NCBI GenBank assembly: GCA_001769535.1
Contig: MEOH01000010.1
Span: forward strand, 440,414 to 504,413
Source of the DNA: Bacteroidetes bacterium GWF2_38_335
Lineage (GTDB): Bacteria; Bacteroidota; Bacteroidia; Bacteroidales; GWF2-38-335
DNA length: 64,000 nt
Direction of reading: 5' to 3'
The position numbers and the translations under genes were made by a program. The notes beneath the pieces are model-generated. The model was given only the letters and a program-made list of their open reading frames with translations, searched no databases and was not told where the DNA came from. Positions 35,736-45,217 of the stretch are shown one piece after another (the first letter of the stretch is position 1; each line of letters begins with the position of its first letter).

Positions 35736-38507
35736 TCATCTTTTGACAATAAATTTTGCAGTGGTTCTGGAATTATTGACTTCTATTTTGCACAAATATT
35801 GTCCGTTTGGCAGATTTCCTGTTCCGATTTCAATTTTATTGTTCCCTTGTAATACTGTCCCCAACTGAGTTTTAAGTACCCTGCCCTCGGTATTGTACAC
35901 CGAAAGTTGGTATTTCCCGGGTTTTCGGGCATTAAATTCAAGGAAAGCCATATTATTAGCTGGATTTGGATAAAATTTACATCTCAACTCATTTTTTAAT
36001 TCATCAACAGACTCAAAAATATCAAAATAGGATGTTACATGGGTTGAAAAGATTCCGTTTCCATGGGTAGCAACCACAACCAGTCCGTCTGATTCACGTG
36101 TTTTTACCATTTCCACCACATTGTTTCCGATCAAATCTTCAGCAAGCTGGTACCATACAGTATTATGTGCGCTGTCAAGGGTATTTGTTACATACAGACC
36201 GGTGCTTGTTCCAAGAAAATAAATTGTTGAATCACCTACGGGTAATATGGATGCCCATCTGCATGATGGTCCGCTTCCTCCGCCTGTTGACGTTTCCTCA
36301 AGATTGCCGGCAACTTTGCTCCAGTTTTCACCTCCGTCTGTTGTATACCATACGCTGTACACCTTGTAATTTGTAAATACAACCATTGCTTTGTTGGCAT
36401 CCCTGGGATCAACGGCAATACAGTTTATATATCCATTTGGAAATGAATAAGAATAGGTGTCGACAAGATCGGGGTCTCCGGTATTGGCATCGGTAATTTT
36501 ATATAATTTTTTGCGACTGGTTCCGGCATATACAATATTTGCCGGTATTTTTGATGCCGCAACTGCTGTAAATACGGTAGCCGACTGGTTGGATGTATCC
36601 GAAAAATATGTCCAACCCGTTGAAATGGAGTCGTAATTTGAGGCCAGGGGAATATAATTTAAACTGTCATTTCTGTATAAGCGCCATCCGGCAGGCATAT
36701 ACATGAGGTTTGAATTATTGGGATCGACAGTAAACTGGTTAATAAACTGATATCCTGATGCCCCAATCGGGTCGATTCGTGCAAAGGCAGTGGGAATTCC
36801 ACTTTCATCAAGTGTGACTTTATAAGTTTTTCCATTTTGAATAGACAGGTAATAAGTATTTCCGCTGTTTGTAATTGCACTGTATGATCCGTCTCCGTTC
36901 AGTGGCATAGTCCAGGTGGCATAAGGATCGGATGAGTTTGTGAAATAATTTCCGTTGTCCTGGAAGCCGGCAATTAATTTATCATTTGTAGATTCTTCGT
37001 CAACTGAAAGCGTGTAAATCTGAGTAGTATAGTAACCGTTATTCAGGCTTATCCATTCCACTGTTTCCTGCAGACAGTTATTTGTGCGGTGGATTCCGCC
37101 GTCGGAAGCTGAGAACATAACATCATTGTCGGATGGCAGGAAAAACACTGAATGCAAGTCGGGATGATGATTTGGGTAAACATGAAAATCGGGAAGGGTG
37201 GTTCCGATTTCATAGCCGCCAATCTGTTTTACGTTGTCGGGAGATGTAAAACCATCAGTTGATCTGTAAAGATTTGTTCCGCCAATAAAAATAACGTTTG
37301 GTTCATCCGGTTTGACTTTAACAACGAGGTCATAGGAACCCTGGGCATAAAAGCGGTCAAAGGAACTGGCTCCGGTATTTGGTATGTTTGCCGAGAGATC
37401 TGTCCACACACCTCCGGTTCCTGTGCCGTCGCCCGAAACATAGGTATATTTCCATAAGCTATGCCATGCTTCTTCTCCGGTCCATGTATTTGAAAGTTGT
37501 CCGTAGCCCGGAGTAACCCCGAGAAAATAGACTTCGTTTTCATTAGAGGGGTTTATGCCAATGACAAATCTGTCAAAAATCAAGGGAAATGATCCCTCTG
37601 GTTGTATTTCAGTCCAGGTTACTCCGTCGGTTGTACGCCAGATTCCACCATAGATTCCGTCGCTGCTTAAGGTTGCGTAAATGGTACCATCGGAGGTGGC
37701 GACCACATCGGTATAATATGATCCTCCTGAAATAGAAGTCGTCCAGGTTTCGCCCCCGTTGGCAGACCTGTAAATTGAGCCGTAGGCAGCAGCATAGATC
37801 TCATCCTCACTGGTATTTGATGGGTCAAGTGCGATATTCCATACGATATCCCAATTTAAATCAAAAGTTTCAGGTGTACCCGATGCGGTTGAAATAATTG
37901 AACTCCATGTTAGTCCGTTATCAGTTGATTTATATAATCCGTTTCCAAGAAAGTACGCTCCGGTGGCACTTGCCGAAGCCCCATAACCTTCACCGGTACC
38001 AATGTACCAGGTGTTTGTTTTTCCTGCACGAATATCCTGTGCTATGCATGTTACATTATGCATTTCGGCACTTCCTGAAGTTTTTGACCAGCTGGCACCT
38101 CCGTTTTCTGAACGCCACATTCCGCCCGAAACGCCGCCTGCCAGAAAAATATTTTCATTTGCCACATCAATTGCAGCACCTCTGGTACGCCCGCCAACAT
38201 GAAATGGCCCACGACGGGTCCACGTCAGGTTTTTACTGAAATAGTCAGTCGCTTTTGGCATATGCTTAGCAAATTCAAGTTCCAGTTTCCTCATGTTTCG
38301 GGGGATGGTATTTGTTTCAGGATCGCATAACCGTGTAAACTCCCAATTGGTCCGGGCAGTGGGATTTTCTGCTGAGCCAATGGCATTGGGACCACCCGGA
38401 AGTTCATTTTTTCCTGCAAATGATTGCGGTTTTTTATCCTGAAAAACAAAAAATATGCATCCGATGGTGAAAATTACAATTAGCGAAGAGATCAAAATAT
38501 TTTTCAT
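35736..38507 (-). CDS. Secreted BNR/Asp-box beta-propeller protein with T9SS sorting domain
   Basis: A 923-residue exported protein. An N-terminal hydrophobic signal (residues 1-22) is followed by repeated Asp-box motifs of sortilin/sialidase-type propellers (SENGGASWSK, STDNGLTWSS, SANGGETWTT, STDGFTSPD, TTDGGENWSK). The last 75 or so residues (FYPNPANNMAFLEF... to the C-terminus) are a type A T9SS sorting domain, so surface display or release is expected. No catalytic residues of a sialidase are evident; a glycan- or protein-binding role is possible. No good promoter was found in the 258-base divergent gap. Confidence 0.85.
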   Translation of the reverse strand: MKNILISSLIVIFTIGCIFFVFQDKKPQSFAGKNELPGGPNAIGSAENPTARTNWEFTRLCDPETNTIPRNMRKLELEFAKHMPKATDYFSKNLTWTRRGPFHVGGRTRGAAIDVANENIFLAGGVSGGMWRSENGGASWSKTSGSAEMHNVTCIAQDIRAGKTNTWYIGTGEGYGASASATGAYFLGNGLYKSTDNGLTWSSIISTASGTPETFDLNWDIVWNIALDPSNTSEDEIYAAAYGSIYRSANGGETWTTSISGGSYYTDVVATSDGTIYATLSSDGIYGGIWRTTDGVTWTEIQPEGSFPLIFDRFVIGINPSNENEVYFLGVTPGYGQLSNTWTGEEAWHSLWKYTYVSGDGTGTGGVWTDLSANIPNTGASSFDRFYAQGSYDLVVKVKPDEPNVIFIGGTNLYRSTDGFTSPDNVKQIGGYEIGTTLPDFHVYPNHHPDLHSVFFLPSDNDVMFSASDGGIHRTNNCLQETVEWISLNNGYYTTQIYTLSVDEESTNDKLIAGFQDNGNYFTNSSDPYATWTMPLNGDGSYSAITNSGNTYYLSIQNGKTYKVTLDESGIPTAFARIDPIGASGYQFINQFTVDPNNSNLMYMPAGWRLYRNDSLNYIPLASNYDSISTGWTYFSDTSNQSATVFTAVAASKIPANIVYAGTSRKKLYKITDANTGDPDLVDTYSYSFPNGYINCIAVDPRDANKAMVVFTNYKVYSVWYTTDGGENWSKVAGNLEETSTGGGSGPSCRWASILPVGDSTIYFLGTSTGLYVTNTLDSAHNTVWYQLAEDLIGNNVVEMVKTRESDGLVVVATHGNGIFSTHVTSYFDIFESVDELKNELRCKFYPNPANNMAFLEFNARKPGKYQLSVYNTEGRVLKTQLGTVLQGNNKIEIGTGNLPNGQYLCKIEVNNSRTTAKFIVKR

Positions 38508-39455: not shown

Positions 39456-39509
39456 ATTCATAATTTCATATTATATAACCTAATTGTTTATTTTATTAAA
39501 TAATTAACC

Positions 39510-40760
39510 ATGAGGAAGTTATTGCTTGTTTTTGGATTTATTCTTATTCTTTGTATTAATTTACTGGTTAGTTCCTGTAGTTTTTTTCAATCGGATGAAA
39601 AGAAAGTGGATCTTTCCATCACTATTAAAATATCCCTGACCGATGTGATTAAATCTTTCACAGTTAACCAATCTGATTCTCTTTTTAAAATGGTAATGGA
39701 TAGTGTGGAAACTAAAATTGCGAAAGGAGATGACTTTTTTGAATTACTTAAGAATGAATGGGATGGTGTTGAGGGAGAAAAGAATATGGCAGTCAGTTTT
39801 TACTCATACCAAATGCCTTTTGATACGGATCGTAATGTTAGTGAAACTGAGGTTTTGAATTTTCTTAAAACTCAAACTGACTTGGTTATAGACCAAACAA
39901 TTTCTGTTTTGGGACAAAGGCTTGAATTATATGGCTGTGAGGATTATTCAATAGAAAAAACTGATGTTCCGGGAGTGATCAATCTGGAGATTAAAGGAAT
40001 TGTGAATTCGAAAAAAATGAATTTTATTATTGAATCAAAGGGCAAAATTGAGTTTTGGGAAACCTATGAGAATATGGAAATATTTCCCTATTTAAAAGAA
40101 ATAAATGACTCTCTTAAATCGGCTAATGAAAGTGGAAGTGAAGATACTGTCGAGCAAATTGATACTGCAAATTCAGAGAGTTTTGAAGAGTTTGCCAGAA
40201 ACAACCCTTTATTTTCTGTTCTGACTCCCTGGGTAGACAGGAATAACCAACTTGGTGAAGGACCTGTAGTAGGATATGCAACAGGCAAAGATACAACTAT
40301 TATAATGCAGCATTTAAGCAAATCGGGTTGCAGAAGTATTCTCCCGGCAAAAATAAAATTTTTGTGGACTGCAAATACTTTTGATGAAGAAGGAAAGTAT
40401 TTTCAACTTATCGCAATCAAAAAAAGAATGGGAAATGAAGCTCCGATTGAGGGAAGTGTCATCTCTAATGCTTTTGCTGAATTAAATGAAGATATGGGCA
40501 CTGTTGCAGTGTATATGGAAATGACTTCAAAGGGAGCTTCTGACTGGGAGTATTTAACAAGGCAAAATATTGGAAAATCCATCGCAATTGTACTTGATGA
40601 CAAAGTATATTCATTTCCAATGGTTCAAAGTGAGATTACCAATGGAAATTCAATGATTTCCGGAAATTTTAGCAAGGAAGAGGCAAATATGCTGGCATTG
40701 ATAATTAAAATTGGAAAAATGCCGGTTAAAACAAAAATTCTCAAGATATCAGAACACTGA
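39510..40760 (+). CDS. Free-standing SecD periplasmic (P1-like) domain as a lipoprotein
   Basis: A 416-residue lipoprotein (lipobox VSSC, Cys23) whose sequence matches the periplasmic head of SecD. VLGQRLELYG (about residues 130-139) and GKIEFWETYENM (about 179-190) correspond to the region before the head, and GASDWEYLTRQNIGKSIAIV, LDDKVYSFPMVQSEI and SMISGNFSKEEA (about 344-395) to the P1 base that precedes the first inner helices of SecD. No membrane helices follow: the protein ends at about the point where SecD would enter the membrane. SecD normally pulls exported chains with proton-motive force; a detached, lipid-anchored copy cannot do that as such. Its role is unknown. Confidence 0.8.
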   Translation: MRKLLLVFGFILILCINLLVSSCSFFQSDEKKVDLSITIKISLTDVIKSFTVNQSDSLFKMVMDSVETKIAKGDDFFELLKNEWDGVEGEKNMAVSFYSYQMPFDTDRNVSETEVLNFLKTQTDLVIDQTISVLGQRLELYGCEDYSIEKTDVPGVINLEIKGIVNSKKMNFIIESKGKIEFWETYENMEIFPYLKEINDSLKSANESGSEDTVEQIDTANSESFEEFARNNPLFSVLTPWVDRNNQLGEGPVVGYATGKDTTIIMQHLSKSGCRSILPAKIKFLWTANTFDEEGKYFQLIAIKKRMGNEAPIEGSVISNAFAELNEDMGTVAVYMEMTSKGASDWEYLTRQNIGKSIAIVLDDKVYSFPMVQSEITNGNSMISGNFSKEEANMLALIIKIGKMPVKTKILKISEH

Positions 40761-43563: not shown

Positions 43564-44325
43564 ATGAAAACAACATTTACCCTATTAACAGTTCTGATAT
43601 TCTCATTTTCACTCTCAGCCCAGGATATACATCAGGTGGTGAGGCAGGGTGATGTGAATAAAATATACGATTGTCTGGTTGCCGGTGCTGATATTAATGC
43701 TCCCGATCAGTATGGCCGGACTCCGATTATGATTGCCGCTTTAATTGGAAATATGAAAGTGGTCAATTACCTCATTGAAAACAAATGTGATGTTAATGCT
43801 GCTGATTATAAGGGAAGAACTGCACTTGATTACTCAATCAGGATGAAAAATATTAAAATCACGGAGGTTTTACAAAAAAATAATGCTATTGTAGGAACTG
43901 GAATTCATGATGAATCTCCTGAAAAATCTGTAGGTTCAGATAATATCACAAAACCATATCCCGAAAAGAACATACAAGCAAATCCAAAAACTTTTGATGC
44001 TCCAAGAGCAAATTTAAAAAAAGAAGCAGAACCAAAATTTCCGGGAGGCAATGATGCTTTGCATAAATACCTGAAAAACAATGTAAAATATCCCGAAGAG
44101 GCTAAAAAAGACAGTCTGGAAGGCACAGCCCACGTGAAATTCGAGGTTACCCCTGAGGGAAATGTGGTTAACCCTGAGATTACCCGCAGCGATAACGTGG
44201 TTTTTAACGCCGAAGCACTTCGACTCATTAAGGAAATGCCAAAATGGGAGGTGGAAGGGGTTGAAAAAAACCGGGATAAAAATTTCGAGTTCAGGGTTCC
44301 GGTAAATTTCAGGTTTAAGGAATAA
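43564..44325 (+). CDS. Secreted ankyrin-repeat protein with TonB-like C-terminal domain
   Basis: A 253-residue exported protein (signal peptide residues 1-19, ending SLSAQ). It has about three ankyrin repeats (about 21-110, for example GADINAPDQYGRTPIMIAAL and DVNAADYKGRTALDYSI), a linker, and a C-terminal domain (about 160-253, FPGGNDALHKYLKNNVKYPE...GTAHVKFEVTPEGNV) of the TonB_C fold seen in Bacteroidota energy-transducer-like proteins. No membrane anchor links it to ExbBD, so it may bind TonB-dependent transporter partners or act independently. The 3' end overlaps the convergent FKBP gene by 11 bases. Confidence 0.82.
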   Translation: MKTTFTLLTVLIFSFSLSAQDIHQVVRQGDVNKIYDCLVAGADINAPDQYGRTPIMIAALIGNMKVVNYLIENKCDVNAADYKGRTALDYSIRMKNIKITEVLQKNNAIVGTGIHDESPEKSVGSDNITKPYPEKNIQANPKTFDAPRANLKKEAEPKFPGGNDALHKYLKNNVKYPEEAKKDSLEGTAHVKFEVTPEGNVVNPEITRSDNVVFNAEALRLIKEMPKWEVEGVEKNRDKNFEFRVPVNFRFKE

Positions 44326-45217
44326 CAGAATTTGGTTTCCTGGCTTTTTTCACAGAAATTATTTCAACCTCAAAAATAAGTGAAGTATATGGAGGAATTA
44401 CTCCGGCAGTGGATCCCTCTTTACCGAAACCCTTTTCGGATGGTATAATAAAAACTGTTTTTTCTCCCTCGCTCATTTCACCAATGGCTTCTTCTAATCC
44501 TTTAATTACCTGCATTTCCTGACCATAAACAAATTCAAAGGGCATTTTTCTTTTGCGGGTTGAGTCAAAAAATTTCCCGCTTAAAAATTTTCCTTCATAA
44601 TGGCAAATGATTGTATCTCCGCGTTCAATTTCAACCCCGTTTCCCTTAACCAGAATATTTTTATATAATCCGGTTGAAACAGGTTTCACTCCAATGACAT
44701 TATCATCAACATAATGGGAAAGAAGTACTTTTTCATAGTCCTTAAAATCTTTGATCCAGCTCATAAATTCAGTCTTTTCTTTTTCAAAGTCTTTATTTTT
44801 CTGGATTTTTCTCAGAAGGACTTCCACTTTCATTTTATTATCTTTTTTCAGAAATCCGGGGACAGGTGCCTCAACGGTTTTTGTAAAGAAATTATATGCA
44901 TTGATAATGAAGACAGCCGAATCGCCGGTGTGCATGAGCATAAAGCACTCATCTATTTCTCCGGGAAATGAAGGGCCGGTAAGTTTAAATTTTCTTATGC
45001 CTTTAAAAAACAGAGAGTCATTTAATGTCTTATAAGCCAGATCAACAGTGATATAATCTCCGGGAGCCGGGCTTTCGCTGTCGGCCGGACCAAGGGTTAC
45101 AAGCTTGTATTTAATACCGGTTTTGGTTATGGAAAAGTCGGCATAATCATCTGTTGCGCACGAAATAAGCACCAACAGAAAAAAAAACAGCAGCCGGTAA
45201 TGAAATTTAAAAGGCAT
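44315..45217 (-). CDS. FKBP-type peptidyl-prolyl isomerase lipoprotein with tandem FKBP-like domains
   Basis: A 300-residue lipoprotein (lipobox LISC, Cys20). The C-terminal FKBP domain is clear (about residues 196-292, GDTIICHYEGKFLSG, FVYGQEMQVIKGLEEAI, PSEKGFGKEG). An N-terminal region (about 35-135, GDYITVDLAYKTLNDS, MHTGDSAVFI) looks like a degenerate FKBP repeat. Such periplasmic or outer-membrane FKBPs fold secreted proteins. It overlaps the upstream FKBP gene by 11 bases and is convergent with the ankyrin gene. Confidence 0.87.
   Translation of the reverse strand: MPFKFHYRLLFFFLLVLISCATDDYADFSITKTGIKYKLVTLGPADSESPAPGDYITVDLAYKTLNDSLFFKGIRKFKLTGPSFPGEIDECFMLMHTGDSAVFIINAYNFFTKTVEAPVPGFLKKDNKMKVEVLLRKIQKNKDFEKEKTEFMSWIKDFKDYEKVLLSHYVDDNVIGVKPVSTGLYKNILVKGNGVEIERGDTIICHYEGKFLSGKFFDSTRKRKMPFEFVYGQEMQVIKGLEEAIGEMSEGEKTVFIIPSEKGFGKEGSTAGVIPPYTSLIFEVEIISVKKARKPNSVIP

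Follow-up and report, generated by a model that had tools for sequence, protein, structure and literature searches.

The locus raises the question of whether a SecDF P1 domain that stands alone as a lipoprotein is a gene in its own right or the remains of a broken secDF, and of what such a protein would do beside a complete SecDF. A natural protein that consists of P1 only, in a cell with an intact SecDF, would allow binding and pulling to be studied one without the other, and with them what the SecD P1 head does apart from proton-driven movement. In the window, i.e., the whole analyzed stretch of 64,000 nucleotides from Bacteroidetes bacterium GWF2_38_335, the gene occupies positions 39510-40760 of the forward strand as an uninterrupted frame of 416 codons with an ATG start. 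It is AT-richer than its surroundings, with a GC content of 0.339 compared to 0.382 for the window. Its product is referred to as P0001, and the segments of the product are listed in Table 1.

Table 1. Positions in the window of the stand-alone P1 gene, of the segments of its product P0001, and of the gene upstream
Feature	Position	Strand	Remark
Upstream gene, 229 aa	38766..39455	+	outer-membrane-like by eye; orphan in genomes searched
Stand-alone SecDF P1 gene (predicted lipoprotein)	39510..40760	+	416 aa plus stop
Lipoprotein-type signal peptide, residues 1-22	39510..39575	+	hydrophobic residues 4-22, KD 2.69; lipobox VSSC
Lipobox Cys23	39576..39578	+	invariant in all 8 aligned stand-alone forms
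First P1 strand, residues 33-41	39606..39632	+	SecDF's preceding GLDLKGGM block missing in P0001
N-terminal helices of P1, residues 43-97	39636..39800	+	
P1 base region, residues 118-182 (SecDF 246-310)	39861..40055	+	9/33 SecDF-conserved residues kept
Middle part with variable insert, residues 183-306 (SecDF 311-480)	40056..40427	+	19/20 conserved residues kept
P1 head, residues 307-405 (SecDF 481-580)	40428..40724	+	31/36 conserved residues kept
C-terminal end, residues 406-416 and stop	40725..40760	+	stop shortly before SecDF's second membrane segment

The sequence-only reading had described a detached SecD head with a lipobox at Cys23 (VSSC) and no membrane helices. Both of these features were borne out, with no hydrophobic segment found in P0001 past the signal peptide (maximum 19-residue hydropathy after residue 30 of 1.03), compared to nine segments with a hydropathy of 1.6 or more in the resident SecDF of the same genome. 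Lipobox and signal peptide together make P0001 a predicted lipoprotein. The Pfam search assigned SecDF_P1_head to residues 309-406 (E 2e-26) next to one other match at a chance-level E of 0.49, and the P1 head family PF22599 scored 92.6 bits, passing its cut-off of 27. The SecDF model NF009585 covered residues 35-411 (E 2e-75) at 254 bits, below the cut-off of 1037 bits for a full SecDF. P0001 aligned with the resident SecDF over residues 32-410 with 38% identity over 429 columns and a longer linker in SecDF; the SecD P1 match had been placed at residues 130-190 and 344-395, and its assignment to this fold stood while its extent proved broader. Both boundaries of P0001 are sharp: it begins right after the TM1/GG-motif stretch of SecDF and ends a little ahead of the second membrane segment. 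The Sec GG motif LGLDLxGG is missing in P0001, which has no match to PF07549, and the membrane domain with the proton path (PF02355) was likewise not found in it. SecD_1st (PF21760), the N-terminal part of P1, gave no match in P0001 at E<=1 although the predicted model has the base fold; the cut-off of this family was passed by the resident SecDF and by the stand-alone proteins of G526 and G723.

The structure of P0001 was predicted with AlphaFold from an alignment of 60 rows, consisting of P0001, one other stand-alone form, and 58 SecDF P1 regions, and reached a pLDDT of 86.5 and a pTM of 0.77. The first nine Foldseek matches of this model were all SecDF. VIA-align, which provided the superposition on SecD P1 that the sequence-only reading had proposed, placed the isolated P1 domain of Thermus SecDF (3aqo_C) at the top with Z 18.8 and 2.4 A over 207 residues at 28% identity, followed by four SecDF entries at Z 12.9-13.5 and the first unrelated row at Z 8.1. 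According to the model, the body of P0001 would represent nearly the whole P1 domain of SecDF, with base, insert and head all present; the earlier label of a SecD head named a part that is there and was too narrow for the whole.

A complete secDF, also anticipated from the sequence, is located elsewhere in the genome, on contig G000:C13. It encodes 1110 aa with the Pfam domains of both halves, and thus lies on a different contig from the stand-alone gene, which sits well inside its own 515-kb contig with 34 kb to the closer end. A tblastn search of the window with the membrane half of SecDF found nothing at E<=1. As the genome has a complete secDF elsewhere and the window lacks any membrane part of SecDF, the P0001 gene is a paralogue in addition to secDF rather than a broken form of it: it is closest to the cell's own SecDF, cut to the periplasmic P1, and predicted to be re-anchored via the lipobox cysteine. 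That it is a truncated secDF or the product of an assembly break was rejected on the intact ORF, the complete secDF, and the missing remnant of the membrane part. While two of the 15 stand-alone genes known to us, in G479 and G684, are damaged, as a broken secDF would be, the window's ORF is intact, carries a lipobox and lies far from the contig end, and the stand-alone genes of relatives are under purifying selection, which makes a broken gene or artefact highly improbable.

The stand-alone form recurs in other genomes. A survey, as suggested by the first reading of the sequence, detected 12 intact and two damaged stand-alone P1 genes besides that of the window, scattered through genomes of the order and the class. 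A search of 60 genomes (its own and 59 relatives) with P0001 yielded no second full stand-alone P1; the matches in these genomes were frames of SecDF length, shorter frames resembling cut or split SecDFs, and a few short head-type frames. None was found in the same-genus genome G001. When 393 genomes of the order, its own included, were searched with P0001 and a profile of eight stand-alone forms, seven further intact genes were detected (G526, G634, G411, G564, G396, G349, and G594), and the full re-search of 40 of these genomes added the intact genes of G549 and G374 and the damaged gene of G479. Stand-alone P1 forms are thus sporadic in their distribution, with at least ten intact genes (the window's included) and one damaged gene among 393 genomes of the order. 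Sampling 295 genomes of the class, its own included, added intact genes in G824, G723, and G769 and the damaged gene in G684. All these counts are lower bounds, as the large searches scored at most four or six candidates per genome with shortened lists of matches, and the full re-searches covered 40, 12, 17 and 4 genomes, partly overlapping. Each of the 15 genomes with a stand-alone gene also has a SecDF, its frame 998-1111 residues long. Of 247 genomes sampled across the phylum, 245 had a P1-head match, and more than one match occurred in the window's genome and six others only; the second matches of these six came from open frames that, at 152-348 residues, do not reach the length of the full P1 forms. 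The scan of a contig database with P0001 alone found no relative. With the alignment of stand-alone forms, the best 80 of 529 loci were analyzed, where 79 ORFs matched the profile, and among these L137 held the only matching ORF under 600 aa, a stand-alone form that is most likely the same gene as that of G526. The lipobox pattern was present in 11 of the 13 intact stand-alone proteins, and in the other two, inspected by eye, the sequence is FDSC and CLGC.

Residue retention was assessed on 117 P1 columns that are at least 90% conserved in 87 SecDFs, using 13 intact stand-alone rows with the damaged G479 and G684 omitted. P0001 keeps 65 of the 117 columns. Over the 13 stand-alone proteins, 380 of 468 conserved residues were retained in the head, 235 of 260 in the middle, 155 of 429 in the base, 50 of 104 in the N-terminal helices, 23 of 169 in the GG-motif region, and 14 of 91 at the C-edge. 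In 11 other SecDFs, which may include near relatives of the 87 references, the fractions were 0.92, 0.84, 0.90, 0.81, 0.92, and 0.82, respectively. On average, 81-90% of the conserved head and middle residues are kept in the stand-alone forms, compared to 36% in the base. The GLDL core of the GG motif (G154, L155, D156, L157) is kept in none of the 13, whereas it is present in 87 of 87 SecDFs; the two glycines after this core are still present in five of the 13. For P0001, the contrast between middle plus head (50/56) and the remaining columns (15/61) was strong (Fisher p 7e-13). It recurred in each of 11 stand-alone rows, with one of each sister pair dropped (p<=5.1e-4), and the three control SecDFs (of 11) taken through the test gave p 0.18-1.0. 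In the head, G349 deviates with 19 of 36 residues kept, and in the N-terminal helices G549, G374, and G769 keep none of the eight conserved residues. In SecDF, coupling of the head to the motor runs through the base and the GG motif. Judged from the alignment, the stand-alone forms would have retained the part credited with binding and lost the membrane-side part, and the loss of base and GG-motif residues shared by 13 proteins offers a way to tell residues likely to act in coupling from those that work for the head.

With the gene and its predicted fold well supported, we infer its function at even odds (a probability of about 0.5): P0001 would be a passive, lipid-anchored, energy-uncoupled capture and hand-off module that supplements SecDF, the kept head pointing to the binding of chains or chaperones. 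P0001 would sit on the periplasmic face of a membrane, where its head would hold emerging unfolded chains or dock PPIase chaperones of the PpiD or SurA type, and it would act without drive from proton flow. In the accessible part of PMC5080379, an acidic pair (LES-like motif) just after the lipobox cysteine marks the surface lipoproteins of Bacteroidetes. In P0001, residues +2 to +5 after Cys23 are SFFQ, without an acidic pair, and such a pair was found in none of the 11 scored stand-alone proteins and, by eye, in neither of the other two. An anchor facing the periplasm is therefore the simplest reading for the stand-alone P1 lipoproteins, as far as their predicted N-termini indicate. The available sections of PMC11470409 describe a pocket of the P1 head that binds substrate, and a contact of this head with the tethered chaperone PpiD; those of PMC9987972 present AlphaFold models that place SurA at the P1 head and agree with low-resolution EM. 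Excerpts of two further papers state that Sec components no longer shift into outer-membrane fractions once SecD lacks P1 (PMC7695460) and describe the mobility of P1 (PMC9508474). A natural link of P1 with a PPIase is provided by a 569-aa SecD of G544 (L080:814-2523, on a 3-kb contig), which contains a PPIC-type PPIase inside its P1 (Rotamase_3, E 5e-19). The ORF next to it looks like SecF by eye, and the short contig could be a contaminant.

The kept head fits chaperone-like and decoy roles alike. As a decoy or regulator, the free P1 would compete with the P1 of SecDF for chains, chaperones, or the translocon and so tune or dampen SecDF. This needs the same kept head, and the membrane-side residues for acting as a part of the motor are indeed largely lost; however, joint expression with secDF is indicated by nothing except a tandem pair in G723, and the two genes lie on different contigs in the window's genome. 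We consider such a decoy rather improbable.

Selection was assessed in two ortholog pairs of other genomes, no ortholog of P0001 being present among the genomes searched. Between the stand-alone orthologs, dN/dS was 0.19 (G634/G411) and 0.27 (G564/G396), compared to 0.047 for full SecDF in both pairs. The stand-alone genes of both pairs are maintained by purifying selection, with a constraint that is four to six times looser than that of SecDF. Together with the sporadic distribution, these ratios argue against an essential role in export. P0001 and its own SecDF differ by a pS of 0.79, where synonymous change is saturated, and a pN of 0.38.

In a tree of 33 SecDFs and P0001, the latter grouped with two SecDFs of its own genus (98/94, starred) on a branch of 2.82. 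The best tree of 11 stand-alone forms (G479 included) and 27 SecDFs had four state changes, three of which are forced by starred branches: the G549 copy paired with its own SecDF (100/99), and the copies of G564 and G396 grouped with the SecDFs of these two genomes (98/84). This tree left the position of P0001 without starred support, and a subset tree placed it with the SecDFs of its genus at 93/96, not starred. A single origin was not rejected by the AU test (p 0.10; subset p 0.074). Among 87 SecDFs, the own SecDF was the closest in four of nine testable stand-alone proteins, including P0001 (42.4%). In G723, the stand-alone P1 lies 265 bases upstream of a complete secDF on the same strand (L178:2529-7326), the layout expected of a tandem duplicate, and its own SecDF ranks only fourth of 87. 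The stand-alone genes would have arisen by duplication of a secDF, removal of the membrane half and acquisition of a lipoprotein signal, a course that was probably taken more than once in the class. Repeated birth from the resident secDF is favored over one origin, and nothing firmer is claimed because long branches are involved.

The gene neighborhood provided little that recurs. The upstream gene had been considered a possible partner; the gap of 54 bases (39456-39509) between the two genes was given correctly, but as a conserved partner the gene was rejected, since a search of 18 other genomes, among them 14 with stand-alone P1 genes, found no relative at E<=0.001. It had no Pfam or NCBIfam match, and a single-sequence model of its protein was unusable (pLDDT 40). 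Among the ORFs listed around the stand-alone loci, no recurring neighbor was seen by eye outside sister species. Some other copies do have an outer-membrane-type gene nearby, which may speak for such a partner: an OMP_b-brl_2 gene lies divergently beside the stand-alone gene of G634 with a counterpart in G411, and an OmpA-family gene two genes downstream of that of G526. In G769, the stand-alone gene is preceded on its strand by SecG, a gene that looks GroES-like by eye, and GroEL; LptE lies still further upstream. As separate observations, the window carries an FKBP-type PPIase with a lipoprotein-like start by eye (44315-45217, -), 3.5 kb downstream of the stand-alone gene, and a protein of 923 aa (35736-38507, -) that combines weak BNR repeats with the C-terminal sorting domain of a secretion system (Por_Secre_tail).

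The lack of an export neighborhood at most loci, the fast evolution of the stand-alone forms, and the many smaller P1-head proteins in other settings would suit a domain re-used outside export, e.g., in an envelope sensor or assembly lipoprotein, whose head is kept only as a stable fold. Against this, the residues kept are those that SecDF keeps, judged to be more than the fold alone requires, and the G769 locus follows SecG and GroEL, so that we regard re-use outside export as unlikely, if less so than a decoy. The preferred role in capture and hand-off is supported by the selective retention of the head, the SecDF in all 15 genomes, and the G723 and G769 loci. Counting against it are the very long branch of P0001, its AT-rich gene, the lack of a stand-alone form in the same-genus G001, the two damaged genes, the loss of head residues in G349, and the absence of a shared neighbor outside sister species. 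For the class as a whole, we tentatively suggest, at somewhat less than an even chance, that resident secDFs repeatedly gave rise to lipid-anchored P1 holdase or hand-off factors with the head under selection and the coupling base decaying.

In the parts of the open-access literature that were available, no stand-alone or lipoprotein form of SecD P1 was found, subscription journals lying mostly outside this scope. Related forms in the genomes are the smaller PF22599 proteins of Bacteroidota, which like P0001 present a stand-alone P1 head, but are shorter, lack the insert and the N-terminal helices, and in several cases are paired with a small single-TM protein. One of these, a second, smaller stand-alone SecD base and head protein of 286 aa, is encoded in the window's genome (G000:C11:80929-81789; L085:5530-6390, +) and has, like P0001, a cysteine after a hydrophobic start. 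Its gene is immediately preceded on its strand by a 133-aa ORF (L085:5066-5467) with one hydrophobic stretch and no Pfam match. A similar two-gene pair was observed at eight other loci (L071-L074 and L076-L079) with gaps of 33-179 bp, and L075 and L084, of similar size, are without it; the 286-aa P1-head gene and the 133-aa ORF look like a conserved two-gene module. Other arrangements include a 653-aa protein of G587 (L070:381-2342) with a P1-like domain and then hydrophobic stretches, where a sub-threshold double zinc ribbon match takes the place of the SecD membrane domain, and proteins of about 275 aa (L082:5992-6807 and L083:5986-6819) that end in a P1 head and whose N-terminal halves, of no recognized kind, resemble each other.

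Compared to SecDF itself, P0001 shares the P1 fold of the T. thermophilus structures (3aqo, 3aqp; 5yhf, 5xam, 5xan, and 5xap are titled SecDF), but it has no TM helices and therefore no proton path, its GLDL core is lost, and a lipobox replaces TM1. PpiD and YfgM, described in the available text of PMC9643414 and PMC11470409 as tethered helpers at the SecYEG exit, would work alike through one anchor near the exit; their anchor, however, is one TM segment and their domains differ from those of P0001, and the likeness proposed is one of working mode. SurA, which receives chains at the P1 of SecDF according to the portion of PMC9987972 at hand, is a possible partner or functional analogue, whereas it differs from P0001 as a soluble chaperone with PPIase domains. 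The SecD2/F2 of Vibrio, as portrayed in the accessible passages of PMC11470409 and PMC6028853, is likewise an extra SecDF-derived gene beside the first, yet there the whole motor is duplicated, whereas the extra gene of the window's genome comprises only P1.
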